From assembly GCA_949358305.1 (NCBI GenBank), contig OX442314.1, positions 4,467,087 to 4,531,086 of the forward strand: DNA of 64,000 nt, given 5' to 3'. Origin of the DNA: Strigamia acuminata. Lineage: Eukaryota; Arthropoda; Chilopoda; Geophilomorpha; Linotaeniidae. The notes under the pieces were generated by a model, which was given only the letters and a program-made list of their open reading frames with translations, did no database searches and was not told the DNA's origin. Numbering within the stretch: the stretch's first letter is position 1; each line of letters begins with the position of its first letter. Below are positions 7,421-55,874 of this stretch, piece after piece. Position numbers and translations under genes: made by a program.

Positions 7421-7440
7421 TAGACCGTCTGGATGCGCGC

Positions 7441-10335: not shown

Positions 10336-10407
10336 TTTGTCAAATTGAAAAAGAACAATGGAAATAAAGGATTTTTTCGCAAAAATCGGATTTTAACAAT
10401 CAAAACT

Positions 10408-11522: not shown

Positions 11523-12445
11523 ACGATCTAATTCCCTACAAGAAAGACGACTACTCCATTCTGTTTGATTTTAAACCAAATTTTCTCTTTTGCTCCCCAA
11601 ACATCAGCGCATTGGTACGATCCATTTTTCAATCCTTTTAGCAATTCAACTAAACCCAAATCTTTTCTTTATCTTATCAAGTTCATGCTTCACAATAATG
11701 ACGACATCATTAATTACAAAATGTCGACTGGATTTCAGCATCACGAGCCACACACTGTGAAAAAATTTGGATTGTCCGCAAAAAGAGTTAGTTCTAAAAA
11801 TTGATTTTATTCAGGCTGATCAGTTTGTACGAACACGCTAGAGTCTAGGGAGTTCATAAACTTTTTAGCATTGCGACCCATTTTTAAGACGGGCGATCTT
11901 CCACATATGATTAATATCTTCAATATTTTAATGCAGTTCAGGATTTTGAATCGAACCGAACAACCATGCGACACAGGTAAAATTGTAAGCAAATGTGAAA
12001 TAAACTGCATTGAAAACGCCCTGAAAAACATCAGCCACTGCAGGTGAGAACAACATATCGAATCACAATTAATTAATTCAATTCAATTCAATTCAATTTA
12101 ATTACGTAATCAAATTATAGGTTTCCTTTCACTTCGCTTTCCGAGCTGCCGTTGTGCGCGAATGAAAGTGAAGCGGCTGCTGGGTGGTTCAACGCGATGA
12201 AATTGGCAATATCTTTCAACTATTTGGAAAAATGCACCTGTCCCAAAAAATGCGATGAAATACTGTACACTGAACATGTGAAAGAAAATGGGCCATCCCG
12301 TGATTCGCGATTATTCATCTACTTTGATGATAATGTGATCGAAGAAATCGAAGAGTCTTACAGCTACGGTTTGATCTCTTTCATGTGCGACGTCGGGGGC
12401 AATTTGGGACTTTTTCTAGGACTAAGCATACCTGCTGTGTTTTAG
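11523..12445 (+). CDS. DEG/ENaC channel gene 1, 3' exons only, early stop in TM2
   Basis: Exons 11523-11614, 11682-11786, 11937-12043 and 12121-12445 join in frame with the same phases as the homologous exons of genes 2 and 3. They encode the second half of the extracellular domain, a Cys-rich segment (CTCPKKC) and the DVGGNLGLFLGLS pore/selectivity motif of DEG/ENaC channels. The TAG at 12443 replaces a Gln codon found at this place in genes 2 and 3, so the end of TM2 and the cytosolic tail are lost although similar codons continue after it. The first exons, including TM1, are not in the window; element 1 lies directly upstream and may separate them. It may be a pseudogene or a truncated subunit. 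Confidence 0.75.
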
Positions 12446-13823: not shown

Positions 13824-16620
13824 ATGCGAAAGGATATGGACCGCGAAGCCAACGCTTTGAAGATATATATTGAAGGCCTTTATCGTGTTCTCAATTCAAA
13901 AAAGGGATTCGGTTATAATTTCCTTTGGTTTCTAGTAATTTCATTCAGTGCTCTTACTTGCTTATATCAAATTTACGATCGATTTAGCGTATTTTTATCG
14001 CGCCCCATTGAAACCAGAGTCACTTTGTCTCGTAATTCGTCCGTAAAGTTTCCATCCATAACTCTATGTCCCGTCAACAACAACTATATACCTTTAGCTA
14101 TGATGAGATACCAGAGAGCAATTAAAACAAAAGAGAAAAATCTCTGTAAAGTAAACTATTATAGTTTTCTAAACGACACGCTTAACGTTTCAACTCTATG
14201 GGACCTTATGTCCTTTAACGGCACATTGGAAAAGGCTGGAGTACATTCTGTAAGAGATTGAAAAGAAAATAATTAATTTTTTTCTCCAAATTCTCATTCG
14301 ATTTTTCAACAGAGATCTTCAATAATCATTCAACAAAAATTAATGGGTTTGCCAACTCTCCCGGTTGAAATTATTACAAAAACTGTATTGGGCTCATGCT
14401 TCACATATTCCTTCAGTAAGTTTATATTCGTACATTAATTTCCTCTTCCTTTACTGAAATTTCCAACATATTCTTCAGAAAATCTTATTCGCTTTCGAAA
14501 AGATGACTTCATGATTGTGTTTACTTTATACCAGAACCGCCCCGGTAAGGACACACCATTTTGTACTCCATGTTTCACAACATGGGTAAGGATAACAATC
14601 GTATTACCATACTTTAAGTGGCATGCCGGTATAGCCTGGGTTTGACCAGACTGCCGGTAAACCCCGTTTCACCGGCTTGTGCCATTATGATAAAATACAA
14701 TTCAACGAAAATTAAATCAAAGCAAGCTATAAAAGCGTTTTTAGATGTCCAAAATGCAAGTAATTAGCCTAAGTTTTCACAAATTTTAATAACAACCTTC
14801 AGAAAATTTAAAAAAATCAAATTTCTTGCCAGAATTCCAACATTTGGGCATTGTTGGTTTTTCGCTGGTACTAGCATGTTTCACTTTATACTGGCTTTCG
14901 GGTAAAACCTTTGTAACTAAAATTTTCAAAAGTTGGTAATTTCCTGCACCGGTTTGCTGCTTAAAGTGGGGTAAAATTGTACTTAATTGTCCAGCTCTAG
15001 CTGATACTAAAATCATGCCGTTTCTTCCTTCAATAAGTTTATGCTGCACAATCACGATGACATTATTAATTACAAAGTATTAAATGGGTTTAGAGCTCAC
15101 AAACCAAACACCTTTCACGCATATGGATTGTCTGCAAAACAAGTTGGTTTTTCCAGTATTTTCCTTTAGAAATTTGAAATTTATTTATAATCTCATTAGT
15201 TTAAAATTTTGAATCGACTCAAACGACCCTGCGATTCAAACAAAGTTGTAAGCGAGTGTGAAAAAAACTGTCTTGAAAATGTCCTCAAAAACACTAGCCA
15301 TTGCAGGTAAGAACTACAATTTGCGCCCAGTATCTTGATGCTAAATTCGTACTGTGCGTCCCATTGTGCGCAGACGATTTTCTAATTCTAGTTGTTATTT
15401 AGCAGTATTAAGCCTAATATTAGGCTTAATAATGTGACCGCTTGGCCACCCACAGGTTACCAGCGTCACTGCCACACGCCGCCCAATGGCCTTAAGGTCA
15501 TCCCTCCTCGCGGATTGGTATGACCCAGTATAGGGAAGGAGAGAGCTGAGTGGTGTGCTGAGGAGAGAGAGTGTAGAAGAGCGCTGGGTCTCAACCGAGA
15601 CAGTTGTGTAGGAAGTAAGGTCTTGTAAGGCCAACAAGGGTAGTCGTGCCCTGAGTTGACTCTGCTCTCCTCCCCATTCACCACTGTGATGCTCAGTAGT
15701 GTGATGATGGCTCTGCTAAAGCCTCCATGAGCGATTGCATGTGTCGCACAGGTAAGTACGGCAGAATGTTACGTTTGACCGGCCATGTAATACATGAGGT
15801 TCTCACCCTGTTTGACGGGTCAGTTGTTGGTGTGGCATGCCTTCGCGGCACTGCCAACACGCGGGTAGACGAGTCTCTAACCCCTAGACAAACGGATTAA
15901 AGGCCAACAACCAACAATCTAGAGTCTCTAGTCTTCTTTATGTGAGTGTCCCAAACCACGGTAACCAGTCCGCTGGCTGCCATGGCAAAGACCATACCAG
16001 TCACAATAATGCTAAAATAAAGGAAATAAAGCAAATAAACACATTATTAACAGCAATTTACACTGTAGAACCAAAATATGGCTGTTTATTTGCTTTATTT
16101 TAGCATTATTAGGCCTAATGTTATGCTTAATAATTGTCTGCGCAAAATGGGATGCCCAGTACAAATTTAGCATCAAGATATCAAGACAAAACGAATTGAA
16201 TTTAATTTTTGCTTACAGTAGAATGCTATTCTTGTTTATTAAAGATTGCCTTTTGTTTCTTTCTCCAATCTGCCGTTGTGTGTGAATGAAAATGATGCAA
16301 TAGATGCACACTTGAAAGCAGAGCAGCTGGCTATTACTTTTGATTATTTAGAACAATGCAACTGTTCTAAAATATGCGATGCCATTTTGTACACTGATCA
16401 TTTGAAGGTGATCGATAATTCTGACAAGTCAGTGTTAGCCTTCTATTTTGACGACAATATGATTGAAGAAATTGAAGAATATTACAGCTACACGTTGATT
16501 CCCTTCATCTGTGATGTTGGTGGAAATTTGGGTCTTTTTCTCGGATTAAGCATCCCTGGCTTATTTCAGGTTATGGAGTCATTCGTTGCTTACTTTTTCA
16601 AAAAACCCACCTCAAATTAA
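13824..16620 (+). CDS. DEG/ENaC sodium channel gene 2, complete, six exons
   Basis: Exons 13824-14249, 14313-14415, 14479-14585, 15038-15142, 15200-15306, 16245-16620 join to 1224 nt, 407 residues, with every junction GT-AG and in frame. TM1 is at about residues 32-53 (NFLWFLVISFSALTCLYQIY), followed by FPSITLC, the family's FPxVTxC motif. The extracellular region carries Cys pairs including CNCSKIC. The pore region is DVGGNLGLFLGLS with the GxS selectivity signature, then TM2 and a short tail. At the usual N-terminal His-Gly gating motif the sequence reads EG (IYIEGLYRVL), so the His is not seen. The protein is shorter than typical 500-700 residue family members. Trimeric cation channel of the plasma membrane expected; ligand unknown. 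Confidence 0.88.
15331..16180. mobile_element. MITE in intron 5 of DEG/ENaC gene 2, carrying a nested solo LTR
   Basis: Terminal inverted repeats of nearly 50 bp begin TATCTTGATGCTAAATT and end with the inverse. The interior has further inverted segments (around 16010-16040 and 16083-16104). A solo LTR (15434-16005) splits it. No transposase frame. Confidence 0.7.
15434..16005. repeat. Solo LTR (572 bp) with ATAA target duplication
   Basis: Starts TGTGACCG, ends CAGTCACA, flanked by ATAA at 15430-15433 and 16006-16009. Related in sequence to the larger solo LTR at 40431-41747, with shared blocks near the start (GTCACTGCCACAC) and near the end (GGCAAAGACCAT). No internal domain remains. Confidence 0.75.
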
Positions 16621-18712: not shown

Positions 18713-20713
18713 ATGCCACCTCGACCGCCGCAAGTTCGACTTACTCTTCACACCAATACATGCTGGGCAAAAAGTATACTTGTAGTAAGAATACCGGTAT
18801 GCAATAATGATATTAACTTCACTGTTTTTCCAACAGAGAGCACTAAAAAACTAAATATTAAGAATCAACATGATCGAGAGAATGCTTACAACAATGCAAT
18901 CCCAGGCCTAAAGCCAGGCAGAGGCTTCGTTTACAATTTCCTGTGGATTATACTTGTTTCTTTCAGCACACTCGCTTGTTCTTATCAAATTTACGATCGA
19001 TTCTGCTTCTTTCTATCTCATCCGATTGATACCAAAGTCCGTTTAATTCATAATTCAACCATCAAGTTCCCATCAATAACTTTATGTCCATACATCGACA
19101 ACTACGTGCCTTTGGTTGGCGTTAGAAAAGAAAAAGCAATAGAAAGAGGAATGAATATCACAGAGTTTTGCAAAGTACACTATTTTAGTTTTCTAAGTGA
19201 TTCTTTTAACATTACGACCTTGTGGGAACATATGTCTTTTACTGGAATCATGCAGAGAGCCTATGACCTTTCGGTAAGAAAAGAGCGGCATTATAAGAAC
19301 TATTTATCCTAAAATACAAAAAAAAAAAAAATTTAGACATCCAAAAATCACACAGATGCAAATGGATTACACGATTCGCCTTTATTCTCTGTCAAAACTG
19401 ACACGAAAGCTATATTGGGGACTTGTCACACGTATTCCGTCAGTAAGTTCCATAACAAAATTTTCTAATTTTTTTTAAATCGATATTTGATTATTGCATG
19501 TTTGTTTTTAGAAGATCCTGTTCTCTTTGAAAAAGATGATTTCATGCTTGTGTTTGCGTTCCAAAAAGAATTGCCACTTTGCGCAGATAATGACATTGCC
19601 ACGGTAACAAAAAAAATAGAAATGAATATTCAAATAAATTTAATTCCTGTTTTAAAATAAGTTTGTGCTGCACAATGATGACGACATTATGACTTACAAG
19701 TTGTCCACAGCTACCATGCTGAAGCCTCGCACCAGACTAGTGTATAGCTTGTCTGCTAAGAGAGTTAGTTTTGTGATTCTCAAGTGCAGTAGAGCATCGA
19801 TTATCAAAACACCGGTTATCCGAACAATCGGTTATCCGAACAACGGTGATCCGATTTTTATCGATGTTTAATCAAATTTTAATGCTTTTTAATTGTTTTT
19901 GTCCATTTTTGATTGCTTCTTAACAATTTTTTATAAATTTTTTATTTACTGTATGTATGCAGTACAGTATGTATATAAAAGTAATGTTCGATTATGCAAA
20001 CAAATTGGTTTTACCAACACCTAGAATGTACTTCCTAACTGTGCTGAAACCGGCACAATTCCTTGTGGTGCTAATACACCACAGTCTCCCAATTAGTTCG
20101 GATAATCGATGGTCTACTGTATGTATGATGTCAAATTAACTACTAACATTTCATTTATTAAAGTTCAAGATTTTGAATCAAACAACGAGCCCGTGCGACA
20201 CTGTTAAAGCTGTAAGCGAGTGTGAAAGAAACTGCTTTGAAGATGCTTTGGAGAATGAAGTTGACTGCAGGTAAGAGATTGAGAAATATTTCTACTGTCA
20301 CATAAAAATCACTTAAAAAAATCAACAGATTACCAATGTCTTCTGTCTCGGAATTGCCGATGTGCTCAGAGTTCTTTGAAGTGCTTATTTCGGGCATACA
20401 AACATTGGACCTCACCCTTTCGTTTGATTACACAGAAAAATGCGATTGTCCTAAAGTATGTGACGAAATATTGTACACTGATCACTTGAAAGAAATTGAT
20501 CAATCCAATCAATCAATCTTATCCCTCTACTTTGAAAATAATCTGATGGAAGAAATCAAAGAGTATTACAGCTATCAGTTCACATCATTTATCAGTGATG
20601 TCGGTGGGAATTTGGGTCTATTTTTAGGATTAAGCATTCCTGGCATTTTTCAACTTGGACAATTTATCATTGTTTATGCTGTGAAAAACATCAATTGCAA
20701 AATGAATTTTTAG
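18713..20713 (+). CDS. DEG/ENaC sodium channel gene 3, complete, six exons
   Basis: Exons (start)-19273, 19337-19442, 19512-19603, 19662-19763, 20164-20270, 20329-20713 join in frame with the same phases as gene 2. With the ATG at 18713 the product is 450 residues; an upstream in-frame ATG at 18629 would add 28. A further intron ending at an acceptor near 18835 is possible because CTTGTAGTAAGA at about 18780 resembles a donor, so the N-terminus is the least certain part. TM1 is near NFLWIILVSFSTLACSYQIY, followed by FPSITLC. Extracellular Cys motif CDCPKVC. Pore motif DVGGNLGLFLGLS, TM2, short basic tail. It is the closest paralogue of gene 2 in the cluster. Plasma-membrane cation channel subunit expected. 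Confidence 0.85.
19787..20119. mobile_element. Pogo-like MITE in intron 4 of DEG/ENaC gene 3
   Basis: Ends CAGTAGAGCATCGATTATC and GATAATCGATGGTCTACTG are inverted with one mismatch. Internal GGTTATCCGAACAA repeats. 333 bp, no transposase. The flanking TA is clear only on the right. Confidence 0.65.
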
Positions 20714-25950: not shown

Positions 25951-26183
25951 ATTTTGTGATAAAATGTCCTACTTTGCAGTGCTCGTCGTTTACACTGGTC
26001 GGTTTTGGTTTCACTTTCTCACAAACACAACTTTGGTCGGGTTTCCTCGTCGTTGCACCTCCGTTGGTGTCGAATTTCAGTTCCAAAGCAAGCCAAACTT
26101 CTACTCACGATTTTCGCTCACTGATGTTTAAATTCAAAGTTCACTTTTTCCCTCAGCATTTGTTAGTTTCGTCGACTGCGCCA

Positions 26184-28042: not shown

Positions 28043-28615
28043 CCAATTGTTAGCCAATATTGGCTGTCGGTAGGCAGCCATTAATTGACCAATATTGGGG
28101 ATACAATATTGGCCCAATGTTGGCTAAGGATTGGCAAGCCAATATTGGGTTACCACGCCAGACCCAATGTTGGCCCGATATTGGCCGGCAATATTGGCCC
28201 AATATTAACTAGCCAATTGTTAGCCAATATTGGCTGTCGATAGGCAGCCATTGATTGGCCATTATTGGGAATACAATATTGGCCCAATGTTGGCTAAGGA
28301 TTGGCAAGCCAATATTGGGTTTCCACGCCAGACCCAATGTTGGCCCGATATTGGCTGGCAATATTGGCCCAATATTAAATAGCCAATTGTTAGCCAATAT
28401 TGGCTGTCGGTAGGCAGCCATTGATTGGCCATTATTTGGAATACAATATTGGCCCAATATTGGCTAAAGATTGGCAAGCCAATATTCGGTTGCAATGTCT
28501 GAGCCAATGTTGGCCCAATATTGGTTGTTGATATTGGTCCAATATTAAATAGCCGTTTGTTAGCCAATATTGGCTGTACGTTGGTTGCCATTAATTGGCC
28601 AATATTGTAAATCTA
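28043..28615. repeat. 170-bp tandem repeat rich in CCAATATTGG
   Basis: Copies start at 28043, 28213 and 28383 with a partial fourth at about 28553. Each unit contains several near-copies of CCAATATTGG and TTGGCCCAATATTGG. Open frames across it on the minus strand (ANIGPIL-type) come from the repeat and are not genes. Confidence 0.9.
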
Positions 28616-29205: not shown

Positions 29206-29603
29206 TAGAAATAATGGTTCACGATTGGCCTGTTTAATATTAGACCAATATTGATCCAATAAATGTCAGGATGTAAGAAAACACCAAATTGGCCCAACAT
29301 TGTGACACTATATTGGGCCAATGTCAAGATGTAAGAAAACGTCAGATTGGCCCAATATTGGTTATGAGTATTGGCCCAATGTTGGCACACAATATTGGGC
29401 CAATGTCGGGATATAAGAAAACGCCAGATTGGCCCAATATTGGTTCAAAATATTGGCCCAATATTGGTTACGAGTATTGGCCCAATATTGGGAAACAATA
29501 TTGGGCCAATCTGGCGTTTTCTTACATCCCGACATTGGCCCAATATTGTGTCCCAACATTGGCCCAATATTTTAGCCAATATTGGGCCAATGTTGCGCCA
29601 ATA
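29206..29603. repeat. Second cluster of CCAATATTGG motifs
   Basis: Alternating TTGGCCCAATATTGG and related palindromes, partly arranged as an inverted pair around 29490 (GACATTGGCCCAATATTG on both sides). Together with 28043-28615 there are at least a dozen perfect CCAATATTGG decamers. Confidence 0.85.
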
Positions 29604-29605
29604 TA

Positions 29606-35628: not shown

Positions 35629-36258
35629 TGTCGTAACCTTGATTCCGGTAAATAAACTTACACAATATCTTACAATAATAACCTTTTTATTGAACACTGT
35701 AATATTACAATAATACTTAACAATGTTGTGGTCTCGGATCCTTGTCGGCGGATACGATTTGTTGCTGCACGGCAGTCTTACACGTGGCTTCTGGTTGTCT
35801 AGGGTTAATGGCGTCCTGGCGAAACACGTGTTCGCAAAACGCTTCAGCGATGGTGAGATATTTCGGTCGTAGTTTTGCTACGACAAATATCTTTGGCTTG
35901 GTGTTACAGATGACTTGGGCAACTGGCATCGGTCCTCTATCAATCCGTGGTGTTCGGCCTGAAAGGTGAGGTGTGATGCTACTGTTGCTGCGATATATCT
36001 GTAAGTGGCGCTTCCGGTCAAAACACGGGTTTAAATACCCCTAGTGACCGGAAATGACGTATTTGCATAAATTCGGGGAATTATGCAAATGGTTGACGTC
36101 ATCATTACATTGATTCCGCAGAAATGGTAAAACTAGTTTAGCTAGTTTTCTTTGTAATAATCATTTCGTGTTACATTTCAGATCAAAGAATAATATAATT
36201 CATTTATCATACACCCATATATTTTACTAAAACATTTTGTGACCTCGTGGTCACCACA
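35629..36258 (-). repeat. 5' LTR of element 2
   Basis: 630 bp, about 99.8% identical to 31938-32567. Confidence 0.92.
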
Positions 36259-37056
36259 ATAGTTTTCCAGCAACATGTTGACTGATTATAGTTCAGTGCA
36301 ACTTTCTTTGTCCTGCTATTCAAAAATTAATTGGAAAATTGTGGGTTGAATTATTTATGTTATGACAGGAAAAAGCAAGAAAAACCGATAATGAGCTTAT
36401 ATAGGAACTTTGCAAAGACTTTCTTTGTTTCAATGAAAAATTAATAAAATGACGCGAACAATTAACTATGATTAACCGAAATATTGTAAAAAGATCACAG
36501 CTTTTGTCTTCAGTTGGGAGCCTATACATTTTACAAAAGTTACTCGTACATCTTAAATACAAAATTTAAGTTCTAACAACGTTATAAAAGTTACATACTC
36601 TAAATTGCTCGCGTGATTTTGTTAATGTTTCATTGATACAGAGGCAGTAGCCCAGTTGCAAACTTGGCAAAGTTCCTAAAATTATTATCGGTTTTTCTAG
36701 CTTTTCCCTTCTGTCACAACATCAATAATTCAACCCACAATTGTCCAATTAACTTCTAAATAGAAGCCAACGAAATTTGCACTGAACTATAATCAGCCAA
36801 ATGTTTCTGAGAAACTATGTGTGAATACACACATGTTGTCAGTTCACCTTGAACTCGGCAAGAGTCTAACAGCAGAAAATACAGGTTCCTACTCAATTCA
36901 AAAGCACACAATATATCTTCTGCCTAACGGATTCTAAATTCACATGTTTGTGTTACTACACATGAACAACTGCAATCAGATTTGTCAACTGGATAAATGT
37001 AATTATTAGACAATCTGTTTTTTTATTCCTAATTTTTCGTGCGAATAACCAAAATT
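36259..37056. repeat. Head-to-head inverted 5' flanks of two DEG/ENaC copies
   Basis: Segment 36259-36450 is an imperfect inverse of about 36620-36830 (shared TTCAGTGCAA/TTGCACTGAA, TGAATTATT, AAACCGATAAT blocks). The inversion continues to the left at 31712-31937, beyond element 2. The centre (about 36450-36620) may be a shared promoter region of two divergent genes. Confidence 0.65.
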
Positions 37057-40000
37057 ATGGAGAATATTGAAACCACAAGAAGAAACAAAAAACTGCGTCT
37101 AAAAATTCATCAATTAATGAGAGATGATGCGAAGAAACCAATTTGCCAATTAACAGGTTTGGATGATTTCATTAACAGTAAACAACGGTGGAACAACCAT
37201 CACGCCCTATTATGGCTTCTTTTGTTCATATTTTGCACAAGTATTCTCACTTACCAAGCTTACGACAGAGTAATGCATTACTTAAGTTATCCCACGGCTG
37301 TTGACGTATCGAGTGGATCGGAAGATGTCATTTTGCCGTACTTGATGATCTGTAGTGGACATACAAAAGAAATGGCCAGGCTTTGGAATAAAACCCATGC
37401 ACATAGCAAAACTTATGAAATGGACGAATCAGGCAACCTTAAGTCATTTGATTGCCTAAACATGGTGAAAACTCTTATGGCAACCCCAACTCAGCACATG
37501 GATGAAGTTTGGAATGCAACCAATTTGACCAAGGAAATACACAGCATAAAAATGAAGGTAAAAGCAAAAATAAAAAACTACCGGTATTATGAACAATAAA
37601 ATAACTGATAAGTTAAACTTCTTTAGGGATATACAAACAACAGCTTTGTCCAGACGGAAATCGAAAGCTCTTTCGGAATTTGCTCAGCATTTAAATTTAG
37701 TAAACACTACAGATAGTAAATAATTTTCACTCCAGAGTGTACCAGTTGAATAATTTTTGTAACAATTAGAGATAGTAGCTGCATTCAAAAACTCTAAAAC
37801 GTATGCAAAACTCGTTTCGTGTCTGTATGTGTGACGTCATTCCCATTGAATAACATGGGAATGACGTCAAATGTACAAACACGAAACGAGTTTTAGAGGC
37901 GTTTTAGAGTTTTTAAATGCAGCTACTGTGAATTTTTTGACATAGTTACTGTAAACAGGAAGTGGTGAGTGCCCATTACAATGCTGCCTCTAAAAATATC
38001 CTGCAGTTCTTCCGAAGATATATTTAATTGATACACTTAAATTGAAACAACCGGTTAACTGTATACGGATTACCGGTTGTTTTACTAGCAGTCCTTTCTG
38101 GGCTGACTTACTTGGTACTGCATCGGTACATGGTTTATATATAAATAGGCGTATACACGTATATTATTGCTTAAAAGTTATCTTTCGCTTTTGGTTAGAT
38201 GAGAATTCTAGTAAATCATTTGTTGGAAAAACATTAACAGTCAATTTTGAAAAATTTTATGACGATTTCTGCCCGTTTTCTGGATACCGGGTAATATTTA
38301 AAATATTGTCAATGACAACACAATTCTGATAATTCTCTTTTCTTTTTGATTAGATTATGTTGACATTATACAATTTTGGACAACTCCTTATGAATATGTA
38401 TAAACCCAGTGGTGCAACAATGAACATCAATTTGGGTTATGACAAAGTAACAAGAACATGATTAAAAATAACATCTACACTAATTAAATCTATTTTAAAT
38501 TTTAGTATATCTTTCTGAACTCCTCAAAACATCCATGCTCCGATGAAAACGAATTCAGAGATTGCTACCAAAAGTGCTTGATTAATGCATTGGAAAACAA
38601 ACTGACCTGCAGGTACTACTACATTTCAAAAGTTTAGAAAGTGAGTGAAAAATTCACTCACTTTGTGAATAACACCAAAAATATGACTTAAAAGTTAAGC
38701 AAAACCAATTTATACCATCAGATTTGAATAAAACAATCATTTTTCATCTAAAATAGCTTATAGTTACATATATTTAGTTATATAGTTTAGTTACAAATCG
38801 AGATTTTCAAAACCTCACTTGTGTCAAAAGTTTAGAAAGTTGAAAAAATCATTTCATAAGTTTAGAAAGTGCAAAATAATTTCTTTATTTCGATTTGAAA
38901 ATAGGACATTACATATAATTTTGTTTATTATTTTGTTGGATGGCCTCTGGATCGTATGACTGCCTTCAATCTGCGAGGTATTGTAGTCTGGGGCAAAACT
39001 AAGTTAACAATTGCGACATTTGAATCTCACGGCTGCATCTCAAGAATAAAAGGAGGAAAACCAATGAAATTTTAACTGAATACTAGTCCAACATTCTGCT
39101 TTGTTCACCTAAAATTTTATGACAATCTATCCATTGGTTCTAGAGAAAAAAATTATTTTATGAAGTGACTGCCCTGAAAAAATAGTTCAGTGTTGGTTTG
39201 AGGATGCGAAAGGTTGGAAATCTCCAATCCATTGAAGAAATAATGGATACTAATGTTTACAGAGACAATTTAGAAAGAAATCTCGAGGAATAAAAAAATA
39301 TTGGGGTTGGTTGAAGCAACAGGATAACAACCAAACACATACATCAAAATTTGCGTGAGAATATTTCACACCAAAAAAAAATCAGACATCTTCAATGGCC
39401 TTCTCAGTTATTTGAAACTTAATCTAATTGAACAGTTAAGAGATGATTTCTTGATTTGAACCAAAAAGTTTCTCTAGAGTTGAGAAAAAAATGTTCCGTA
39501 GTTGAAATTAGCTTTGCTTGATGTTTGGGTGTAAAGTATGTCTAAAACAGTGCTACTAAAATTGCTTGAAAGTATGGCTGAATGATTGAAAGCAATAGTA
39601 CAAGCTAAAGGAGGGCCAACAAAGCATTAACAGACATTGTTGTAAGGTTTCTCGATGGTTAACAGAGTTTGTTAACTTACCTTTGCCTCTTAAATTTTGA
39701 TGTCACTTCATAAAATAATTTTTTCCTCTAGAACTAATGGATAGATTGTCATAAAATTTTAGGTGAACAAAGCAGAATGTTGGACAAATATTCAGTTAAA
39801 ATTTCATTGGTTTTCCTCCTTTATTTATGGAGATACAGCCATGAGATTCAACATGTCGCAATTGTTTTGCCCCCCACTGTAGTGTCTACAATGCCTCGCA
39901 GATTGAAGGCGGTCATACGATGCAGAGATCATCTCACAAAATACTAAACAAAAAAATGAAAATGTCCTATTTTCAAGTCGAAATAAAGGAATTATTTTGC

Positions 40001-43000
40001 ACTTTCTAAACTTATGAAATGATTTTTTCAACTTTCTAAACTTTTGACACAAGTGAGGTTTTGAAAATCTCGATTTGTAACTAAACTATATAACTAAATA
40101 TATGTAACTGTAAGCTATTTTAGATGAAAAATGATTGTTTTATTCAAATCTGATGGTATAAATTGGTTTTGCTTAACTTTTAAGTCATATTTTTGGTGTT
40201 ATTCACAAAGTGAGTGAATTTTTCACTCACTTTCTAAACTTTTGAAATTTAGTAGTATATCTTTTGTTGCATCTGGTTTTCCATCCAAGGCACCAAGCCC
40301 GTGATAATACATGTGGTGTGTGGCATTGTAAACAATCCCACAAAACGCTAACCGCCAGACACAGTTAAGAATGCTGAGTTGCTGTTTTGACATACTGATA
40401 GAAATTGTTGGAGGGAATTCGCAGATATTGTGTGACCGTCTGGCCACTCAGGGTGACCTATGTACGTCACTGCCACACACCGCCTTACGGACCTAAGGTC
40501 AAACCCTATTGGGTGAAGTGACCTAGCCTGGGAGAAGAGCGGCAGAGCAGAGTGTAGAGAGTCTGTCACCGTGGAGCAGTGCTGGACTGACCCGGCGGGC
40601 TACCAGGAGTTTCCCGATGGCCCGTGGCTGCTGTGGTCTGTCGCGGCCTGCTGTGGCCGGTCCCGATTTCATTAATTGTGGCTTGGACACGCAGATTTTC
40701 CCGGCAATAAATTTGTTCCCAGTCCAGCCTGCCGTGGAGGGACAAAGGGCTCTCTCCGACCGTGAGAGCAAGAGAGGAGCTGTAACCATTTAAGGAACAA
40801 GGCATGTCCCGGGCTGTGGACTCTGCACTCCTCGCCATTCACCACAGCGACGCTCAGTGCTATGGCGGTCTCAATAGTATATTCTCCATGAGTGGCTGCT
40901 GCGGGTCGTAAGTGAGTACGACATGAATGTAATGTTGAACCGACCACGTCACCCAGTGGGCTCACGCCCTGTGTGTGATAGGTCGGTTGCCGGTGCGGTG
41001 TTCCATCGTGGCACCCCCACAACGAGTGATGGGATTCCCCATAGCCCTACACTGGGAGAAATAATAGGTGTAAAAAGGTGCCTTTTAATTTTTTTAACAC
41101 CTACAAAGGTGTTAAAGAGTGTAACAGGGAGGTGTGAACGAAAATGGAGTAAAAATGGTGTAAAATGGCAAAGTTACACCTTCGGATAAAAAGGTGTAAT
41201 TCTTCTAAAAGGTGCATATAGTTGTTGCAAGGTGTAACTGGGAGGTGTGAACTGATGTGGGTGTGATGCTACTCCATAGTGGGGCAAATTTACACTTATT
41301 TTATAACACCTCAAAGTTGTGTATACCGTACTCTCTAATAGAGTTCTTTTACACCTGTTAATCAACACCTCAAAGGTGTAATATTACTACATAAAGGAAT
41401 CTACTTACACCTTTTTTTGAAAATAGTTTAAAGGAGTAAGTTTCCACCTAAGGATGTACCATGACACCCACAAGGTGTAAACGCATGAAGATGTAATATT
41501 TACACCGCATGTTCATTACACCTCAATGATGTAAGTTTACTCAAAAAAGGAGTCTGTATAGGGACAAGTGTTTTACACCTATAAAAGTGTAACTTCACAC
41601 CTTTTAACACCTATATTTCTCCTGGTGTAGACAACATTAAAGACCAACAACCAATAATAGGGAGTTTTCGTCATTTATTATTGAGTATGCGTCCACACCA
41701 GGCCTACTGGTTCCCTAGTTAACATGGCAAAGACCATATTAGTCACAATTGTTTTAGACTTAAGTCGTTTATTTCATTCCACTCGCATGACCTGCACGTA
41801 CTGGCTCCAAAAGCAGAAATCTCCAAGTCATGTTCTGGGTCGTGAGATTACACAACAACTCTCCCTGGCGGGAATCAAAGTGACACAAATCACAACAACA
41901 CAAACTGTTTTGTCTGCGTTTATTCCTTCACTGAGCAAAAGTATACAAAAATTAAACAGAAAAAAAATCACTTTTGCAAATCACTTTTTGCAAATGGATA
42001 CAATGATCATCAAACAACTTCATTGTTCATTGTGCTCTCCAATTTTGAGATCTATATATACTTTTAATTTTTATACTCTAATTTCTTATATAAGACCTGG
42101 TTTAAATCCCACTTTTGTCAAATCTCACACACAATCCCTTAAGTTGCAAAGCACAGACGAACACAGAATTTAAAGCGTGCCATTTGCCAGATAACCCAAA
42201 TTGTCAGTATTGGCCACATCTGATCAACCGGCCTCCAAAGGGCTCAATAGAACAATGGCCAAAAATCGGGTTGATTTAATGGTGAATCCTAATCATCTTA
42301 ATCCTATGATCAATTTCCTAAACAGGAAGTGAGTGTCAGATAATAGAGAGATTCAGAGAGTCAACACTTGCACTAGTATTATGAAAGAGGAGGTCCTTCC
42401 TAATTGAATGTCATTTTCTATCTTTAAGATTGCCTTTAGTGAAGATGAATTTACCACTTTGTAAATGTTCAAACGCTATACACGATCAATATGGCGTCAT
42501 AAATAAATTGATTGACACCACAGATCCAATTACTACTTGTTCGTGTCGTCGTCCATGTCAGCAGTTAGCTTTTACACCGTACACAGATCCTGGTGATTCA
42601 GGTAGTCACAAACTAATGACCTTATCTTTTGAACTAACAAATGAGAATATCAACGTGTATGAAGAACGTTACATCTACGACATTATTGCCTTACTGTCAG
42701 ATTTAGGAGGCAATCTGGGCCTGTTTCTGGGTCTATCGTTGCTCTCATTACCTGAAATCACTTGGTATTTACATTGGATTGTTACAAATCGCAAAAAGAA
42801 TGTCGATGAGATTCACCATCTTTATGAGATGTGCAAAAAAGAAGTCATTGCAAGTGAAGAGCAAATTAAAACTGACGCAGTTTTAAGAAAGCTTAAGTTT
42901 GTGCTAGTTGTAATTAGTACAGGATTCACTCTATACTTGTTGCAATATCGCTTAAACTACTACTTGGAAGAACCTGTGTTAAAGGTTGTCACCGTAGTTC

Positions 43001-46000
43001 AACGTCGCCACACGGAATTTCCTACCGTCACACTTTGTGCTGAAAATCGTGCTGATAAAATGGAACAAGCCAGATTGCAGTTGCTTAACCAGAAAAACAA
43101 AACCTGCAATGAGATGTCACCATGGAAATTAGTCAACAATCAATTGTCTATGGAAGATGTTTGGAAGATTCTTAATGTCCATCCACTACTTCAAGTTAAT
43201 GACAATATGACTAAGGTATTATATCCTGCCAGACACATTTTCGTGGACACCATGTTTTAGCAAATTGGGATGCTGTTGGAATAAACAAAGATAAAAATCA
43301 TAATATTTACTTATTTTTGAATACAAAAATTAAAGGAAATCAAAATCAATACAGAAATAAACTTTTAGCAGCAAAAATTCATATTTTTATGGTGACACAA
43401 TTTTGTGGACACCCAAGACACAATTTTGTGGACACCTAAATCTGTTAGGTAATTTAAATTACAAAGAAAACCTTTAATATTTTGTTTGACCCTCTCTCTC
43501 TTTGATCACTTCCACTAGTCTATGGTTGTAATTCTTGAACATATTTGCAATTTTCTCTCTTTTTTGGCTGTTAAGCACTTCCACTGCCTTCTCAATCTCA
43601 TCCCATAGCTGAATTTGTGAATTAAACTGTTTACCACCGTAAACTAGATCACTAAGCATGTGCCAAACATCCTCAGTCAAGTTTAAATCAGGGCTGTGAG
43701 CAGGCCAGTCAATAACATCAAAATTTGCTGTCTGGAACCACTGCTTCAAATTTTAGCAGTGTGAACACTGGCATTGTCTTGTTGGAAATAATATTTGCTA
43801 TCCTTAAACTTATTGTCCAGGATAGGCTTCACTTTGTTCTGTAGGTAATCAACTGCTTTCACTCGTCCTGTCATCAGGACAAACGAGTCCCCAGACCATT
43901 ACACTTCCTCCGCCCATTTGTCACAATATGAGCCAAAATTATCAGGTCCATCAAATTAAAACTTCTTCCTATCACTAAAAACAGTTTTGTCAAAAGGATG
44001 ATTTTCAGCAATCCACTTTATAGCTGATTCCAGTCGGTTTTTCTTATGCTGTTTGGTCAAAGGTAATTTTTGCACAACATGCTTGTAAACAAACCCTTCT
44101 TGGGCTAATTCACGTTGCACAGTCTTAACTGAAACAGATAAATCGCAATTTTCCTTGATTTTTCTGGCTGTAACCTTCTCATCCTCTCTTTATCCTGGTT
44201 TTTTCCTTCTGTTTCAACTTAAATTTAAGTCCTCTTTTCTTCTTAACTTTCTCATAATCATTTCTCACCATTTTATGCACTGAACTTTTGAGAAGTTTGA
44301 GATCACGGCTTATTTGTCTGATCCCATGGCCACTCGCAAATAATTCCTTCACTTTGGCTATAACATCTTTCTCATACATGGCTGCATGTATTTACTAGCT
44401 TGTCTGATATCAGATTACCATAAACTGATAATTTATTCAAAGTTTGGTTGAATACATTAGCGTATTTAGGTGTCCACAAAATTGTGTCACCATGAAAATA
44501 TGAATTTTTGCTGCTAAAAGTTTATTTCTGTATTGATTTTGATTTCCTTTAATTTTTGTATTCAAAAATAAGTAAATATTATGATTTTTATCTTTGTTTA
44601 TCCCAACAGCATCCCAATTTGCTAAAACATGGTGTCCACGAAAATGTGTCTGGCAGATAGATAAAACAAAACAATTACCATACAAAGTATAATGTATAAT
44701 TTATATTTATAGCACATTCTTGGTTATAAAACAGTACTAAATATAACAAGTAGTTTTATCCTGTTGCCTTTTGGTAATTGTTCACAAGTGAGGACAGGTA
44801 ATGTAACTTATGTGGGAAAGTTGTATCAGTAAATTCCGTAAATACTTGTACACATTGTGCTCGATTGATTGTTGCCTTTAAGTCCACCCTAAACTTCTTC
44901 AGAGTTACAATCAGGCTAGAACATTCGTGCTGATCTATTTGTTCCGACAATCACTAATCTTGCATGGTCTATTACTAGCTAAACGGTTTTAGCACGCAAG
45001 AGTATTTGAGCCACAAGCTTTTCTGGAGTCCTGCACATGTTGATAGATATATTGACATAGATTTTTCAAATTTCTTTAGAAAAATCAAACTACTTAACAG
45101 CAGAACTTATGATTGGGTTTGTAGGACTTTATCCTCCGGAAGTTTGCAATCAACATGTCTGGGTATGATTAAATTAAAATTAAAGCACAAATCATTTATC
45201 TAACTAATCTAACTAACAAGCAAGTTGACTAATTTAATAACCCCCATCTTTGACTCATTTTCCATCCAAGGATGACTTAAAGTTCCCAAACTCAAAAATT
45301 GCCCAAGAAAACTATTCTTATCCCCTAATGTTTATTGTTCCTAATAAGCGCTTCACATCCCAACCTATTTATCCCAATTATTGCCAAATTTACCCAGATT
45401 CTTATTTTTATTGTGAACACAATACTCTCTTAGCTTTTGATAGGTGGCCAAGATGAAGTTTCTGACCAATAGGTACAGATGCTCTACAACTTTCTAGCCT
45501 GATTGATTTAAACGTTAGAAAGTGAATGATCTTGAAAATGACCTCCAAGGTCATATTACCCAACTTCTTATATGAGTCTAGATGCAGTTGCTTCAGAAAT
45601 ATTTGGTGGAAACCAGACTTTCAGGACAACCTGTATAATTATTTGTGGCATGTCAAAATTGAAAACGATGACTAGAGCCATGGAGCCATGGAACCCGTTC
45701 CATGGCTGCACATTCCCTGGGTTTGCAGAGATGTACGCTTGCAATCCCTGATAAAAAATATAATTGTTCTTCCGGCAGAGGCCAAAACTGTACCCATTGG
45801 TCCGAAACACCATCGAGGAAAACTTGATAACATTGTGCTTACAATAAAAATAAAAATAAGAATTTGGGTACATTTGACAATAGTTTGGGTCAATGTGGAT
45901 GTGGTGGGATGTAGAATCTTTATTAGGAAGAAAAAACATGAGGGAAAAACAATAGTTTTCTTAGGGAGATTTTGAGCCGGGGAGTTTATGTCATTCTTGG

Positions 46001-47398
46001 GAGTAAAATAAGACAAAGATGGGGATTTACCCCATCTTTGCTGCCTTTTAAGTTATAAAGTTACAAAGAAGGTTTAGTGAACTCTATATGCCCAGAGAAA
46101 CCACTAATTTCAAGCAAATTACAATAGCTGCATTCAAAAACTCTAAAATGTATGCAAAACTCGTTTCGTGTTTGTACGTGACGTCATTCCCATTACATAA
46201 CATGGGAATGCAGCTAGTACATCTGAAATTGCATCTGAAAAGGTCTGACAACTTGTTACTATTTTTAAAAGAGAGAGAGAGTTGATTACAGCGCTTGATT
46301 GGCTGAGATGGACACCCGATCGATTCCTTTGTGGCAACGAACTGGCATATAACAGCCAGATAATACAAATGAGTGGATTCTCTAGGCCGAAAAGGGTTTA
46401 TGGTAATATAAATAATCTAAATAAAGTGGACTAACTCTTTCAAGTTTACTCAACAGTCAACACACATTTCAATGGCAATAAATAATCTTTCAGTTTTTTC
46501 TAAATGATCCAAAAGACGAAGTTAATATTTTAGCACCGCTGATGAGAAACTACAGTGGAGTGAATACGATATTTATTCGAATATTTAAGGTAACAAAATG
46601 TTAGTGCATTCAAAGTTTTAGTTTTGTAGTTTTTACAATCTGTTGTAACTTTGACAAAACCTTTTTTAAAAAATTTTAAAACTATGCTTGTCTTAATTTT
46701 ATAAACAGACCTTACGTAGAAACACCAAACATCACCCTTGCGAAAAAAACAAAACCGCTCATTTCATGTGTAAAACTGCTTGTAGAAAAAACAATTTATT
46801 TCGAAAGATCAACTGCAGGTATTTTAGAAGCCGTTACAAAACAATCTGATAAAATTTGATTGTAATCCAATCCAATCGTTTTTAAACTAAAAGAAGATTG
46901 AGACTCACTCAAAATCCCTGTAAAAATAAGTGTGGATTACAAACAAAATTTAACAGGAGTATTTATACATAGGTTTGATTACAGTACAGTAAGCCAACTT
47001 ATTTCAGATTACCGTACATGTCAACATCTAATTTGCAATCTTGCAACACAACAGAAAACGTTACTGGTGCACATTTCACGTATTTGAATAACTCTAACAC
47101 AAATCAAAAACAATGCAAATGTAAACAACCTTGTTCAAATATTTTTTACAAACCTATTTTGCACGGAAATAATGTCTTAGAGGCATTTAAGTTTTATACA
47201 TTTTTGCAGTTTCTATTTGCTGATAGTTTTATCCAGATTACGGAAGAAAAAGAAAAATATCCAACATCTCAGTTGTTAAGCGATGTCGGAAGCATTGTAG
47301 GATTAGCATTAGGAATGTCGTTACTTTCCTTGCACATGTACATTTTAAAAGGTTATAAATGGGTTCGATACAATCTGGTTGGTCGATTTCGCCAATAG
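37057..47398 (+). CDS. Two-domain (tandem-fused) DEG/ENaC channel gene, eleven exons
   Basis: Exons 37057-37557, 37627-37699, 38199-38290, 38354-38446, 38506-38612, 42429-43215, 44713-44773, 45080-45162, 46494-46589, 46709-46818, 47008-47398. All introns are GT-AG, all junctions are in frame, and the total is 2394 nt (797 residues). Domain 1: TM1 near residues 48-70, LPYLMIC, CSCRRPC, pore LGGNLGLFLGLSLLS. Exon 6 carries TM2 of domain 1, a cytosolic linker of about 45 residues (NRKKNVDEIHHLYEM...), TM1 of domain 2 and its FPTVTLC motif without a stop. Domain 2 ends with CKCKQPC and DVGSIVGLALGMSLLS. Exon phases of each domain copy those of genes 2 and 3. Both termini of this family are cytosolic, so the fusion is topologically sound. 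The exons at 44713 and 45080 are less conserved and the least certain. No His-Gly motif is seen in either domain. Confidence 0.85.
37774..37927. mobile_element. Short palindromic MITE in intron 2 of the two-domain gene
   Basis: Almost the whole 154 bp is an inverted repeat (AGTAGCTGCATTCAAAAACT...AGTTTTTAAATGCAGCTACT) with centre near ATGGGAATGACGTCA. A truncated relative lies at 46127-46215. Confidence 0.75.
38616..40255. mobile_element. Tc1/mariner-like transposon copy B (1640 bp) in a splice donor
   Basis: Same family and length as 29606-31245. TA at 38614-38615 and 40256-40257. The left TA overlaps the 5' splice site of exon 5: the donor GT is 38613-38614. The transposase remnant is broken by stops. 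Confidence 0.85.
40431..41747. repeat. Solo LTR (1317 bp) in intron 5, ATTG duplication, with nested MITE
   Basis: Starts TGTGACCGTC, ends TTAGTCACA, ATTG at 40427-40430 and 41748-41751. Relative of 15434-16005. The MITE 41050-41627 accounts for part of its larger size. Confidence 0.78.
41050..41627. mobile_element. MITE made of GGTGTAA-type repeats
   Basis: Ends CACTGGGAGAAATA and inverse (TATTTCTCCTGGTG), TA on both sides (41048-41049, 41628-41629). The interior consists of many forward and reverse GGTGTAA/TTACACC motifs, so almost any part can pair with another. Confidence 0.75.
41752..42428. other. Rest of intron 5, nothing recognised
   Basis: Ends at a TCTTTAAG acceptor. An open frame at 41724-42173 has no family features and begins in the solo LTR, so it is not counted as a gene. 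Confidence 0.5.
43226..44656 (-). mobile_element. Tc1-like DNA transposon in intron 6, broken transposase
   Basis: Inverted ends CTGCCAGACACATTTTCGTG and inverse, about 200 bp long. Minus-strand fragments: an N-terminal helix-turn-helix part (44179-44379, GIRQISRDL...SSVHKMV) and a C-terminal catalytic part (43474-43749, WPAHSPDLN...EDVW), separated by frameshifts and stops. It begins 10 bp after the exon 6 donor. A TA target is not clear. Confidence 0.85.
45470..45645. repeat. Diverged half of a foldback element
   Basis: Resembles the right arm of the foldback at 47782-48540 (CTTGAAAATG.CCT.CAAGGTCA, CCCAACTTC.TATA, TAGATGCA.TTGCT). No opposite arm is present. It lies in intron 8 of the two-domain gene. 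Confidence 0.55.
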
Positions 47399-47779
47399 AC
47401 CTTTGGAAAATCATGATGTAATGATCTTTGGCACCGCCCACAATAATGTGATGTATTTTGAAATTGCATTGTGAATGGTTTTTCTCGTCGAGGGGGGGCA
47501 ACAATTGTTTTAAAATACAGGAAAATGCAGAAAAAGTGCAATTTTCGTGTAAAAAAAATGCAATTTTGTGTGAAAAAAAAACAATTTTGAGTGAGAATAT
47601 GCATTTTTGGAGTCAAAAAGTGCTATTTTTGGGTCAAAGAGTGCAATTTTTGGGTTAAAAACTCTCAACTTTTGTCAAAATGTAATGTTACTTCCAAGCC
47701 AAACTGCAACTTTTACCTAAAATATTCAATTCTCACTTAAAAGTACAATAGTTACCTTAAAAAATTAATTTTACAAGTA
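47399..47779. repeat. 3' flank of the two-domain gene with a 25-bp A/T minisatellite
   Basis: At 47515-47680 about six degenerate copies of a unit like TGCAATTTTTGGGTNAAAAAG. Possible polyadenylation signals were not singled out. Nothing else recognised. Confidence 0.55.
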
Positions 47780-47781
47780 TA

Positions 47782-48540
47782 CAGGGTGGAACAAAAGTCT
47801 GTTCCCCTCAAATATTTCCTGAGCAATTGCATCTAGGCCAACTTTGATGAAGCGATCGTATAGGAAGTTGGGTGAGAGCAATCCAATGATGTCATCAAAT
47901 TTGACCTTGAAGGCCATTTTCAAGGTTATTCACTTGCTAACTTCTAAACCAATCAGGTTAGAGCAAAAAAGTCAATTACAAAGTTGTAGAGCATCATCAA
48001 ATTAGTACTATCCAACTTATCTTAGTCATCTTAAGTTAAATGTTTTCCTTTTAAAAAGAAGACAAATCAGCTGAAATAAAGCCAGCCATTGTGACAAAAC
48101 TTAAATTTCTATCACAAAAATACTGAATTACTTAAATAAACATATTCAAATGTGTATCATTATGCAAGTAAACAAGAACAACCACTGCCTTTTTTTAATG
48201 CCCTAATAATTATTTTATCACAAGAATAAAAAATTTCACTTTGCTGATTTTTTTCTGATTTGTCTCCTTTTGAAAAGGAAAACATTTAACTTAAGATGAC
48301 TAAGATAAGTTGGATAGTACTAATTTGATGATACAACTTTGTAATTGACTTTTTTGCTCTAACCTGATTGGTTTAGAAGTTAGCAAGTGAATAACCTTGA
48401 AAATGGCCTTCAAGGTCAAATTTGATGACATCATTGGATTGCTCTCACCCAACTTCCTATACGATCGCTTCATCAAAGTTGGCCTAGATGCAATTGCTGA
48501 GGAAATATTTGAGGGGGGAACAGACTTTTGTTCCACCCTG
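47782..48540. mobile_element. Foldback element 1, about 290-bp arms
   Basis: Ends CAGGGTGGAACAAAAGTCTG and inverse, TA on both sides. Arms 47782 to about 48071 and 48253-48540 are nearly perfect inverse copies around a 180-bp loop. No ORF of its own; a transcript would form a long double strand. Confidence 0.88.
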
Positions 48541-51812: not shown

Positions 51813-54800
51813 TTATTTCGAGACGAAAATTCGGGATAATAAATTTCGAAGACGCTCTGAACTGAGCCACTTGGTGAAAATGTCGGATACATTTATCTCA
51901 CCCGGAATCTTGCGGAGTTCGAAACAACCGGCAATATGCCACTCACGAAGCCAGTGAAACTTCACTCGAATATGTTTCGTTTTCGAGTTCTCGATGTCGT
52001 TGTTCGTGAACTGAATCGAGGCGAGGGCATCGGAAAATATGATCGGTTTCGATAATCGACGTAAAGGCGGAAATACTTGATAAATACTGTCCAACCAGTA
52101 TAATTCTTTGACGATTTCGACTAATGCCACAAATTCGGCTTCCATAGTGGAGCAGGCAACGCTGGTCTGTTTCTTGCAGCTCCAGCCAATGGGCACACTT
52201 CCGATGTAGACAATGTATCCGCCGAATGATCTCGATGTAGCGATGTCGGAGGCCCAAGAGGCGTCTGTGCAACCCCACAGTTGACTCGAATCGCATTTCG
52301 AAAGTTCGATGGAATAATTACTCGTATTGGCCACATATCGAAGAACTTGAAGCAAACACTTAATGTGGCTTTGGTCGTAGCAGTTGTTGTACTGCGAGAG
52401 AGCGATGACCGAGTATAAGATATCGGGACGAGTGCGAGAAGCGAGGAAAAGTAATGATCCGATGAGCGACCGATACGGGAAATCCGGAAGATTGTCCAAC
52501 GAGCCTTTCACGAGCGTGGTTCCCGGTGTAACAGGCACTTTAATGAGTGCATCGGACGAAACATTAAACTTTTTGAGGAGTTTATCGATGTAATTGCGTT
52601 GAGTCATGAAGACTTTCCCGTCACGACGCTCGAATTCCACTCCGAGCAACTTGGTTATCGGGCCGAGGTTGACGATTTCGAACTTGCTCGTGATTAACGC
52701 AAGAATACGGTCTCGGATGTTCTCCGACGCGTAAAATAAAACGATGTCGTCAACGTAAACTAACATGATGGCCGAATGTCCAAATGCATAAACGCAATTA
52801 CAAGCCGGAAATTTCTGGAATCCGAGTCCGGTTAATGTCTCGTCGAGCTTTTGGTACCACATGCGCCCCGACTGATGAAGACCGTAAAGCGACTTGGTCA
52901 ACAACCAGACGTTGTCGGGCGAGGAGCATGTGGCACCGGCGGGAATCCGCATGTAGATTTCGTGGTCGAGGTCGCCGTAGAGGTAGGCACATTTTACGTC
53001 GAGATGAGTATCCCTCCATCCTAACAAGACGACTAGAAGACAGAAGAAGAATCGGATGAGCACGAAGTTAACTACCGGGCTAAAAACTTCATCGAAATCA
53101 ACGCCCATTGTTTGGCGGAAACCTTGTGCGACAAGTCGGGCACGGTATCGATGAATTGTCCCGGTGGCGTCCGATTTTAACTTGAAAATCCACTTGCATC
53201 CTAGGACTGTCTTATCGGGTGGACGCGGAACCTCTTTGTAAACCTCGCGCTTCTTGAAAGTAGAAAGCTCCTCGTCGATTGCTTCGGTCCATTTCGGTGC
53301 TTCGGGCAATTTAACTGCTTCGGCATATGTGGCCGGTTCCCGAAAACACATGAAGACACGATGAGGCGATGGTGGAACATAGGGCATGTGGTGTTCCAAA
53401 TTGCCAAAAAAGAAAATAGACTCGTCATACGGTAGCCGATGTGCGAAACAATAAGCGGCGATATCGTTTTGCGACCGCAAGCGGACACCGTGTTCCGGAT
53501 AATAATAAACGTCGACCTTGATCTTTCCCGGGATTTGATCTTTCCGGAGATGTTCCTCTCTCCTCCATCCGCTGAAGGGCGAAACGCCGCCAATAAAACT
53601 CCAAGGGCAATGAAGAGCACGTAAAGGGGCCAAATTAGGCGTACCCGGAGCGGGAATAGGCAAGGCGGCCGCTTCGTCAAGAAGGTCGTCGTCAAAGTCA
53701 GAACCCTGTACAGACATCGCCGTGGTATCGTCAAGACATGGAAGAGTTGGGTAAGAGATCGAACGTCGCAGCTGGGGTAAACGCGTGGAACGTATGGTTG
53801 GAGAAAATTGGCCATGTCCTGCAACGGTCGCTGCAGTAACGGAGTCATCGGCAGCGGTCACGGAGCCATCAGGAATAGCCTCACCATCCAGAGGCACGCT
53901 TGCAGCGGCGGACGGGGCAAATGAAGCGAAAGACGGAGCGGTCGAAGCGACAGACTGAGCACGACTGATAATTCCATCATCGTCACTACTGCCGGCGGAA
54001 GAATCGTTATCCGAATCGCGACGTCGTCGAGGCCAAGGTTGAGTTGGGAAATTATCATGAAAAGTGACACGCGACGGGGTGTGGCCACGAGCAGGCTCCT
54101 CCATGGGTGGAGCATTGTCATCCGGATCCGGAACATAAAAGGGCGAGCGTTTAAAGTTCTGCCGTTCATCGATTTGGACGTGGACAGTTTCGGTGACAGT
54201 GTTCGTAGCCGGATTCAAAACACGATATCCTCGAGTTCCAGACGCGTAGCCGACGAGAAATCCCTCCCAAGCTCGAGGGTCCAGTTTATTGCGTCCAGGT
54301 GCGGTGAAGTGCACCCAGCACTTGGAACCGATTTTACGAAAATGTCTGACGGAGAGAGCTCGCTGGCGCCACAAAATGTACGGGATTTCGTCGTTGAGCT
54401 TCGAATGTGGACTTCGGTTCTTGATGTACACGAATGTCACAGCAAGTTCGGCCCAAAGCGTATGCGGAAATCCGGTTTCGGATCTAACGGAGCGGAGATA
54501 ATCGCCCATCGTCCGGTTCAGGCGTTCGGCGACTCCATTCATCTGTGGGCTCGCGGGGTTGGTCCGTTGCGCAACAATACCCTTGTCGGCGAGATAACGG
54601 TCAAAATCCCTTGAAATGAATTCTCCTCCACGGTCGGTACGAATCGTTTTGATCCGGCAATCGGCTATACGTTCGACACGGGAAACAAAGTCTTTGAACG
54701 TAGCGAAAACATCGGATTTACGGGCAATCGGGAAAAGCCAGGCATACCTGGTGGCGTCGTCGATAATGGTGAAGGCGAAATTAGCGCCACCAATGGAAGG

Positions 54801-55847: not shown

Positions 55848-55862
55848 TGGTGTCTTTCCAGG

Positions 55863-55874
55863 CCTCTGCTACCA
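55863..55874 (-). other. Primer binding site, initiator tRNA-Met type, element 4
   Basis: TGGTAGCAGAGG on the minus strand, two bases inside the 5' LTR. Confidence 0.8.

Follow-up and report, generated by a model that had tools for sequence, protein, structure and literature searches.

A gene of the centipede Strigamia acuminata that probably encodes a natural two-domain DEG/ENaC channel protein

We analyzed a stretch of 64,000 nucleotides (nt) from Strigamia acuminata (GenBank assembly GCA_949358305.1, contig OX442314.1, positions 4,467,087 to 4,531,086 of the forward strand; hereafter the window) that carries a small cluster of DEG/ENaC channel genes. One of these, here called gene D (37057-47398), is, as read from the DNA alone, probably a single gene for a real protein with two channel domains in one chain. 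This architecture is present in the DNA as a continuous frame, GT-AG splice sites, two PF00858 domains and intron phases like those of the neighbouring genes. DEG/ENaC channels are built from three separate subunits, and a two-domain chain in a threefold family cannot form one pore alone; it has to recruit a partner, leave one half idle or build something larger. A protein of this kind would be a natural test of subunit order and stoichiometry in DEG/ENaC channels.

Gene model and the two channel domains

The model of gene D was re-derived from the raw sequence and then compared with the exon list of an earlier note, which had described one gene with two complete channel domains and eleven exons joined in frame to 2394 nt. 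The independent derivation gave the same exons (Table 1): 11 exons on the + strand, 2394 nt in all, encoding 797 amino acids (aa) with no stop or frameshift in the 797 codons, and introns that are GT-AG in 10 of 10 cases. The phases after successive exons are 0, 1, 0, 0, 2, 0, 1, 0, 0 and 2, followed by the stop. By tblastn and profile search we found three DEG/ENaC relatives (A, B and C) upstream of D on the same strand, and the phase series 0, 1, 0, 0, 2 is found in B and C and repeated in each half of D, as the earlier note had reported for the single-domain neighbours.

The Pfam domain PF00858 (cut-off 23.6 bits) matched the whole 797-aa protein with 5e-51. When each half was searched alone, the two matches anticipated by the earlier note were obtained, one in half 1 (first 413 residues; 5.9e-27, 95.2 bits, over residues 31-400) and one in half 2 (last 384 residues; 4.9e-25, 88.9 bits, in two stretches), and the domain was present in all four domains tested (half 1, half 2, B and C). 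Thus, where one domain per chain is usual for DEG/ENaC proteins, two PF00858 domains lie here in one 797-aa frame. Hydropathy analysis showed four peaks (residues 50-68, 374-392, 444-462 and 763-781) at the places expected for the first and second transmembrane segments (TM1 and TM2) of each half, and all N-glycosylation sequons of each half fall between its own TM1 and TM2. The selectivity motif G/S-x-S in TM2 reads GLS in half 1 and GMS in half 2, with G390 and S392 invariant in half 1, half 2, B and C. Eight cysteines of the cysteine-rich part are likewise invariant across these four domains. Of the 12 ectodomain cysteine columns common to B and C, 11 are aligned in half 1, and its twelfth, in a column split by the aligner, was placed by eye; the TM1 cysteine common to B and C (column 100) is missing from both halves. 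The DEG/ENaC N-terminal motif before TM1 is His-Gly. It reads Thr-Gly in half 1, Glu-Gly in B and Pro-Gly in C, and since it is altered in all four domains its absence is no ground for excluding any of them from the family. Taken together, the re-derived exons, the PF00858 match in each half and the frame of exon 6 described below give good DNA support for a single gene with two complete channel domains.

The fusion exon, its linker and the origin of the gene

The two halves meet within one exon. Exon 6, in which the earlier note had seen no stop between the pore and TM2 of the first domain and TM1 of the second, was confirmed as a single open exon: 262 whole codons are open, and the stop-to-stop frame of 291 codons was reached in 0 of 500 dinucleotide shuffles of 36001-48000, in which the longest was 195. 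The exon ends in phase 0, the phase that ends exon 1 of the neighbours. From half 1 TM2 to half 2 TM1 there are only about 100 nt, so that a gene boundary with tail, untranslated regions (UTRs), promoter and start would find no room; the gaps between coding ends are 1379 nt for A-B and 2093 nt for B-C. Judged by the stop frequency in the introns of B, C and D (10169 bases), a run of 35 codons would be open by chance in 9.8% of cases, and in 3.3% if the right frame is also required. The openness of the linker taken alone is hence the weaker evidence and could be chance, and the missing half 1 stop together with the spacing of about 100 nt is the stronger. With a codon score trained on B and C only, the linker scored 0.159 in frame; 1.4% of 1011 overlapping 99-nt pieces from the introns of gene D scored as high. 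Within the linker, 16 GT-AG pairs span a multiple of three nt and could form introns; their donors are weak by eye and each would preserve the frame. Exon 6 gave no match among phage records, and no confirmed relative was found in viral and prokaryote contigs, as expected for an animal gene.

A join of this kind could also be produced by an assembly that collapsed the intergenic DNA between two adjacent genes. The locus is full of repeats and transposons and a single assembly is the only source; nevertheless, we regard an artefact as very unlikely, as the join is in frame and stop-free with a coding-like linker, and a tandem-repeat scan revealed no array in 41996-47530 (no dispersed-repeat search of exon 6 was made). 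Domain databases do list two-domain proteins of the DEG/ENaC kind, many of which are gene-prediction fusions. In helminth genomes, the fusion of separate genes into one model is a known error of annotation (PMC12964723); this artefact is not directly applicable to D because the junction is inside one exon.

A further explanation accepts the fused frame and proposes that half 2 is also, or mainly, made on its own from the internal ATG at 42829 (the M of YEMCKK), driven by a promoter in the half 1 exons, so that the functional products would be separate subunits. This ATG is in frame, has a G at -3 and lies 18 codons ahead of half 2 TM1, and a half 2 begun there would have a short but possible N-terminus. 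Half 1, however, would still be without a stop of its own and would run on into half 2, and an internal promoter would presumably need to lie within conserved pore-coding sequence; we consider this explanation improbable.

The halves are highly diverged. Identity between half 1 and half 2 is 22.4% (79/352 aligned residues), which is lower than the identity of either half to B (25.6% for half 1 and 26.4% for half 2); to C the values are 23.7% and 24.1%, respectively, and among the neighbours 49.0% (B-C) and 59.6% (A-B). A recent self-duplication as the simple origin was set aside, because the halves share just 22.4% identity. We also made trees of seven rows, comprising A (a fragment), B, C, both halves and parts of the channels BRTNaC1 and PDPNaC1. 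The best tree places half 2 beside the three neighbours and half 1 beside the centipede channels, with weak support (77/83), and when PDPNaC1 was left out half 1 joined BRTNaC1 at 89/86. These positions are unsure, since half 2 has the longest branch of the seven, long branches come together in the tree and the sequence of A is a fragment. The halves are unpaired in the trees, yet a forced pairing was not rejected by the approximately unbiased test (p-AU 0.259; 0.205 without PDPNaC1).

The earlier note had suggested a tandem duplication followed by loss of the stop. This is only partly supported: the identity is low and the halves are unpaired in the trees, although a pairing is not rejected. 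Probably the fusion joined two diverged neighbours by deletion, or the duplication is old. Such a deletion may have reached from the last exon of one cluster member to the first exon of the next, which would have removed stop, UTRs, promoter and start and left exon 6 as a single hybrid exon. This would be a way, at the level of exons, for a tandem gene cluster to give rise to a new architecture.

State of the gene and proposed arrangement of the subunits

Several observations weigh against a functional two-domain protein or the arrangement that we propose for it. A G at donor position +5 is present in 1 of 10 gene D introns vs 12 of 13 in A, B and C (Fisher p 0.0001). No AATAAA or ATTAAA is found within 600 nt 3' of the D stop, the first AATAAA being at +677, as compared to one signal each for A, B and C, and the polyadenylation signals thus lend no support to the fusion. 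The three reverse-strand frames of the linker score 0.07-0.12, exceeding the intron mean, and single-sequence structure prediction of exon 6 was useless (mean predicted local distance difference test, pLDDT, 35.8). Of the 12 ectodomain cysteines of B and C, half 2 has 10 in the alignment and one placed by eye, and is without the cysteine of column 232. In addition, the linker has no glycine at the place of the N-terminal glycine of half 2, and half 2 has the longest branch noted above. Judged from this cysteine loss, glycine loss and branch length, half 2 is more derived than half 1. The linker is a further point. Engineered ASIC concatemers in which 19-aa linkers extend the tails that the subunits already have gave functional trimers (PMC10329638); they show that the topology is possible but are no proof that 33 residues suffice, because their linkers come on top of these tails. 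Finally, the arrangement of the subunits is pure inference.

Some of these features would fit a recently dying or non-functional fusion whose product is free of selection. Half 2 has lost one common cysteine and the N-terminal glycine, nine of ten D donors are without the +5 G, transposons with 98-99% complementary arms sit in introns 5 and 6, one of them at the exon 5 donor, no common polyadenylation signal lies within 600 nt 3' of the stop, and neighbour A is already pseudogene-like. On the other hand, the 797 codons are free of stops and frameshifts and all ten introns are GT-AG. In their match to U1 the D donors also resemble those of B and C (4-7 of 9 consensus positions in D, 5-7 in A, 5-8 in B and C), and a neutral loss of the +5 Gs should have produced stops as well. 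A dying gene is therefore in our view quite unlikely, and the cysteine and glycine losses, donors, transposons and polyadenylation signals leave room for relaxed constraint, mainly in half 2.

If D encodes a real two-domain protein, its layout would be TM1-ectodomain-TM2, a cytosolic linker of 33 aa and again TM1-ectodomain-TM2. Each half would fold as an ordinary subunit, and the two would occupy adjacent places of one trimer. The linker would join half 1 TM2 to half 2 TM1 on the cytosolic side, and adjacent places would therefore be the natural arrangement. Two halves leave one of the three places empty, and another chain would be needed to fill it; candidates are the products of the co-clustered genes B and C and one half of a second copy. 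With both halves in one trimer and a separate third subunit, half 1 and half 2 would always be present at 1:1 and in fixed order, and half 2, being more derived, might have the role of a modifying subunit.

The earlier note argued that a covalent dimer would impose an unusual stoichiometry, and this inference is sound. The specific proposal, a natural DEG/ENaC concatemer in which an obligate heterodimer chain fixes two adjacent places and must recruit a separate third subunit, is the arrangement that we favour, but tentatively; we judge it possible rather than probable. No description of a natural DEG/ENaC concatemer was found among the papers listed, judged by their titles and the beginnings of their abstracts, a weak absence as the slash-spelled family name is not searchable. 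The halves of a real protein may also be used otherwise, with half 1 forming homotrimers that carry half 2 as a non-conducting or regulatory appendage, or with three chains forming two linked trimers. This overlaps with the reading of D as a real two-domain protein, and the two probabilities do not add. The more derived state of half 2 is in favour of such a use, as is the related PDPNaC1, a homotrimer of single domains (PMC12714832); in contrast, half 2 retains the G-x-S pore motif and, with one placed by eye, 11 of the 12 ectodomain cysteines. We consider this use of the halves rather unlikely, and somewhat less so than the explanations by an internal start or a dying gene.

Surrounding features and relation to known channels

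Features of the locus are collected in Table 1. Neighbour A is a probable pseudogene; retroelement frames occupy 2975-10392, upstream of it. When the whole window, cut into 2523 six-frame segments (at least 15 residues), was searched with a profile built from the five cluster domains, all 25 segments above the inclusion threshold fell within A-D. Below the threshold there were eight weak rows, two of which hold D exons 3 and 7; the best of the other six (0.026) is on the - strand inside the frame 22975-25968.

The TA flanking the intron 5 transposon overlaps the GTA of the exon 5 donor, so that the insertion has left the donor GT in place. Intron 5 also contains dense scattered ACACCT-like repeats in both orientations (41060-41640). 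Elsewhere in the window, two minisatellite regions are rich in CCAATATTGG-like words, one at 28043-28607 with a period of 85 or 170 and one at 29262-29604 with several periods from 11 to 106. A Copia-type retroelement frame on the - strand (51816-55868, 1351 codons) also matches a methyl-CpG binding domain, PF01429 (1.7e-5, 24.8 bits, cut-off 21), between integrase and reverse transcriptase. Two open frames on the - strand, 3-2168 (722 codons) and 56762-59560 (933 codons), had no Pfam match at 0.001. A search of Rfam at gathering thresholds gave no matches.

Table 1. Exons of gene D, its linker, neighbouring genes and transposons (positions in the window)
Feature	Position	Strand	Description
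Exon 1 (half 1)	37057..37557	+	Start codon, N-terminus, TM1, first part of ectodomain; end phase 0; GT donor, open frame, PF00858 match
Exon 2 (half 1)	37627..37699	+	End phase 1, as in B and C
Exon 3 (half 1)	38199..38290	+	End phase 0
Exon 4 (half 1)	38354..38446	+	End phase 0
Exon 5 (half 1)	38506..38612	+	107 nt, as in A, B and C; end phase 2
Exon 6 (fusion exon)	42429..43215	+	Cysteine-rich part, pore and TM2 of half 1, then TM1 and FPTVTLC of half 2; no stop between; end phase 0
Linker	42784..42882	+	33 aa, residues 408-440, half 1 TM2 to half 2 TM1; no stop, no N-glycosylation sequon
Exon 7 (exon 2 of half 2)	44713..44773	+	End phase 1; without the cysteine found here in B, C and half 1
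Exon 8 (exon 3 of half 2)	45080..45162	+	End phase 0
Exon 9 (exon 4 of half 2)	46494..46589	+	End phase 0
Exon 10 (exon 5 of half 2)	46709..46818	+	110 nt; end phase 2
Exon 11 (exon 6 of half 2)	47008..47398	+	Cysteine-rich part, pore with G-x-S, TM2, stop TAG
Neighbour A	11523..12445	+	Only exons 3-6 found; TAG inside TM2
Neighbour B	13824..16620	+	Single-domain DEG/ENaC gene, six exons, 407 aa
Neighbour C	18713..20713	+	Single-domain DEG/ENaC gene, six exons, 450 aa; exon 1 ends at 19273
Transposon, intron 5	38616..40255	.	297-nt arms 38614-38910 and 39961-40257, 99% complementary
Tc1-like transposon, intron 6	43226..44656	-	Arms 98% complementary; transposase split over several - strand frames

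Naturally fused channel subunits are familiar where the pore is fourfold, since two or four halves fit such a pore without remainder. Two-pore channels and K2P channels resemble D in that a subunit was duplicated within one chain; their pores are fourfold and evenly divided by two fused halves, whereas no number of whole two-domain chains adds up to a threefold pore.

Among solved structures, the centipede channel BRTNaC1 (broad-range thermal receptor 1; PDB 8ymr and others) ranked first and PDPNaC1 second, followed by ASIC5, FaNaC and ASIC1-2. BRTNaC1 was at the top for three queries, the full D protein, gene B and half 2; it matched gene B over residues 16-396 with 3.8e-26, and profile A1 gave 3.8e-36. 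It is thus the closest solved relative of the cluster, and differs from the two-domain D protein in having one 431-aa domain per chain, in a channel described as trimeric (PMC12804983). The second closest, PDPNaC1 (proton-dissociation-permeated sodium channel of Scolopendra subspinipes mutilans; PDB 9jf7), is also unlike D, being a homotrimer with a single domain per chain (421 aa, nine exons; PMC12714832). Engineered ASIC concatemers are like D in that subunits are placed in one chain via cytosolic linkers, and they form functional trimers (PMC10329638 and PMC8871370). These are man-made and hold three subunits per chain, whereas D is natural and has two domains with 33 residues in all from TM2 to TM1. 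If the proposed arrangement is true, gene D would be evolution's counterpart of the laboratory concatemer, with a built-in heteromeric stoichiometry.

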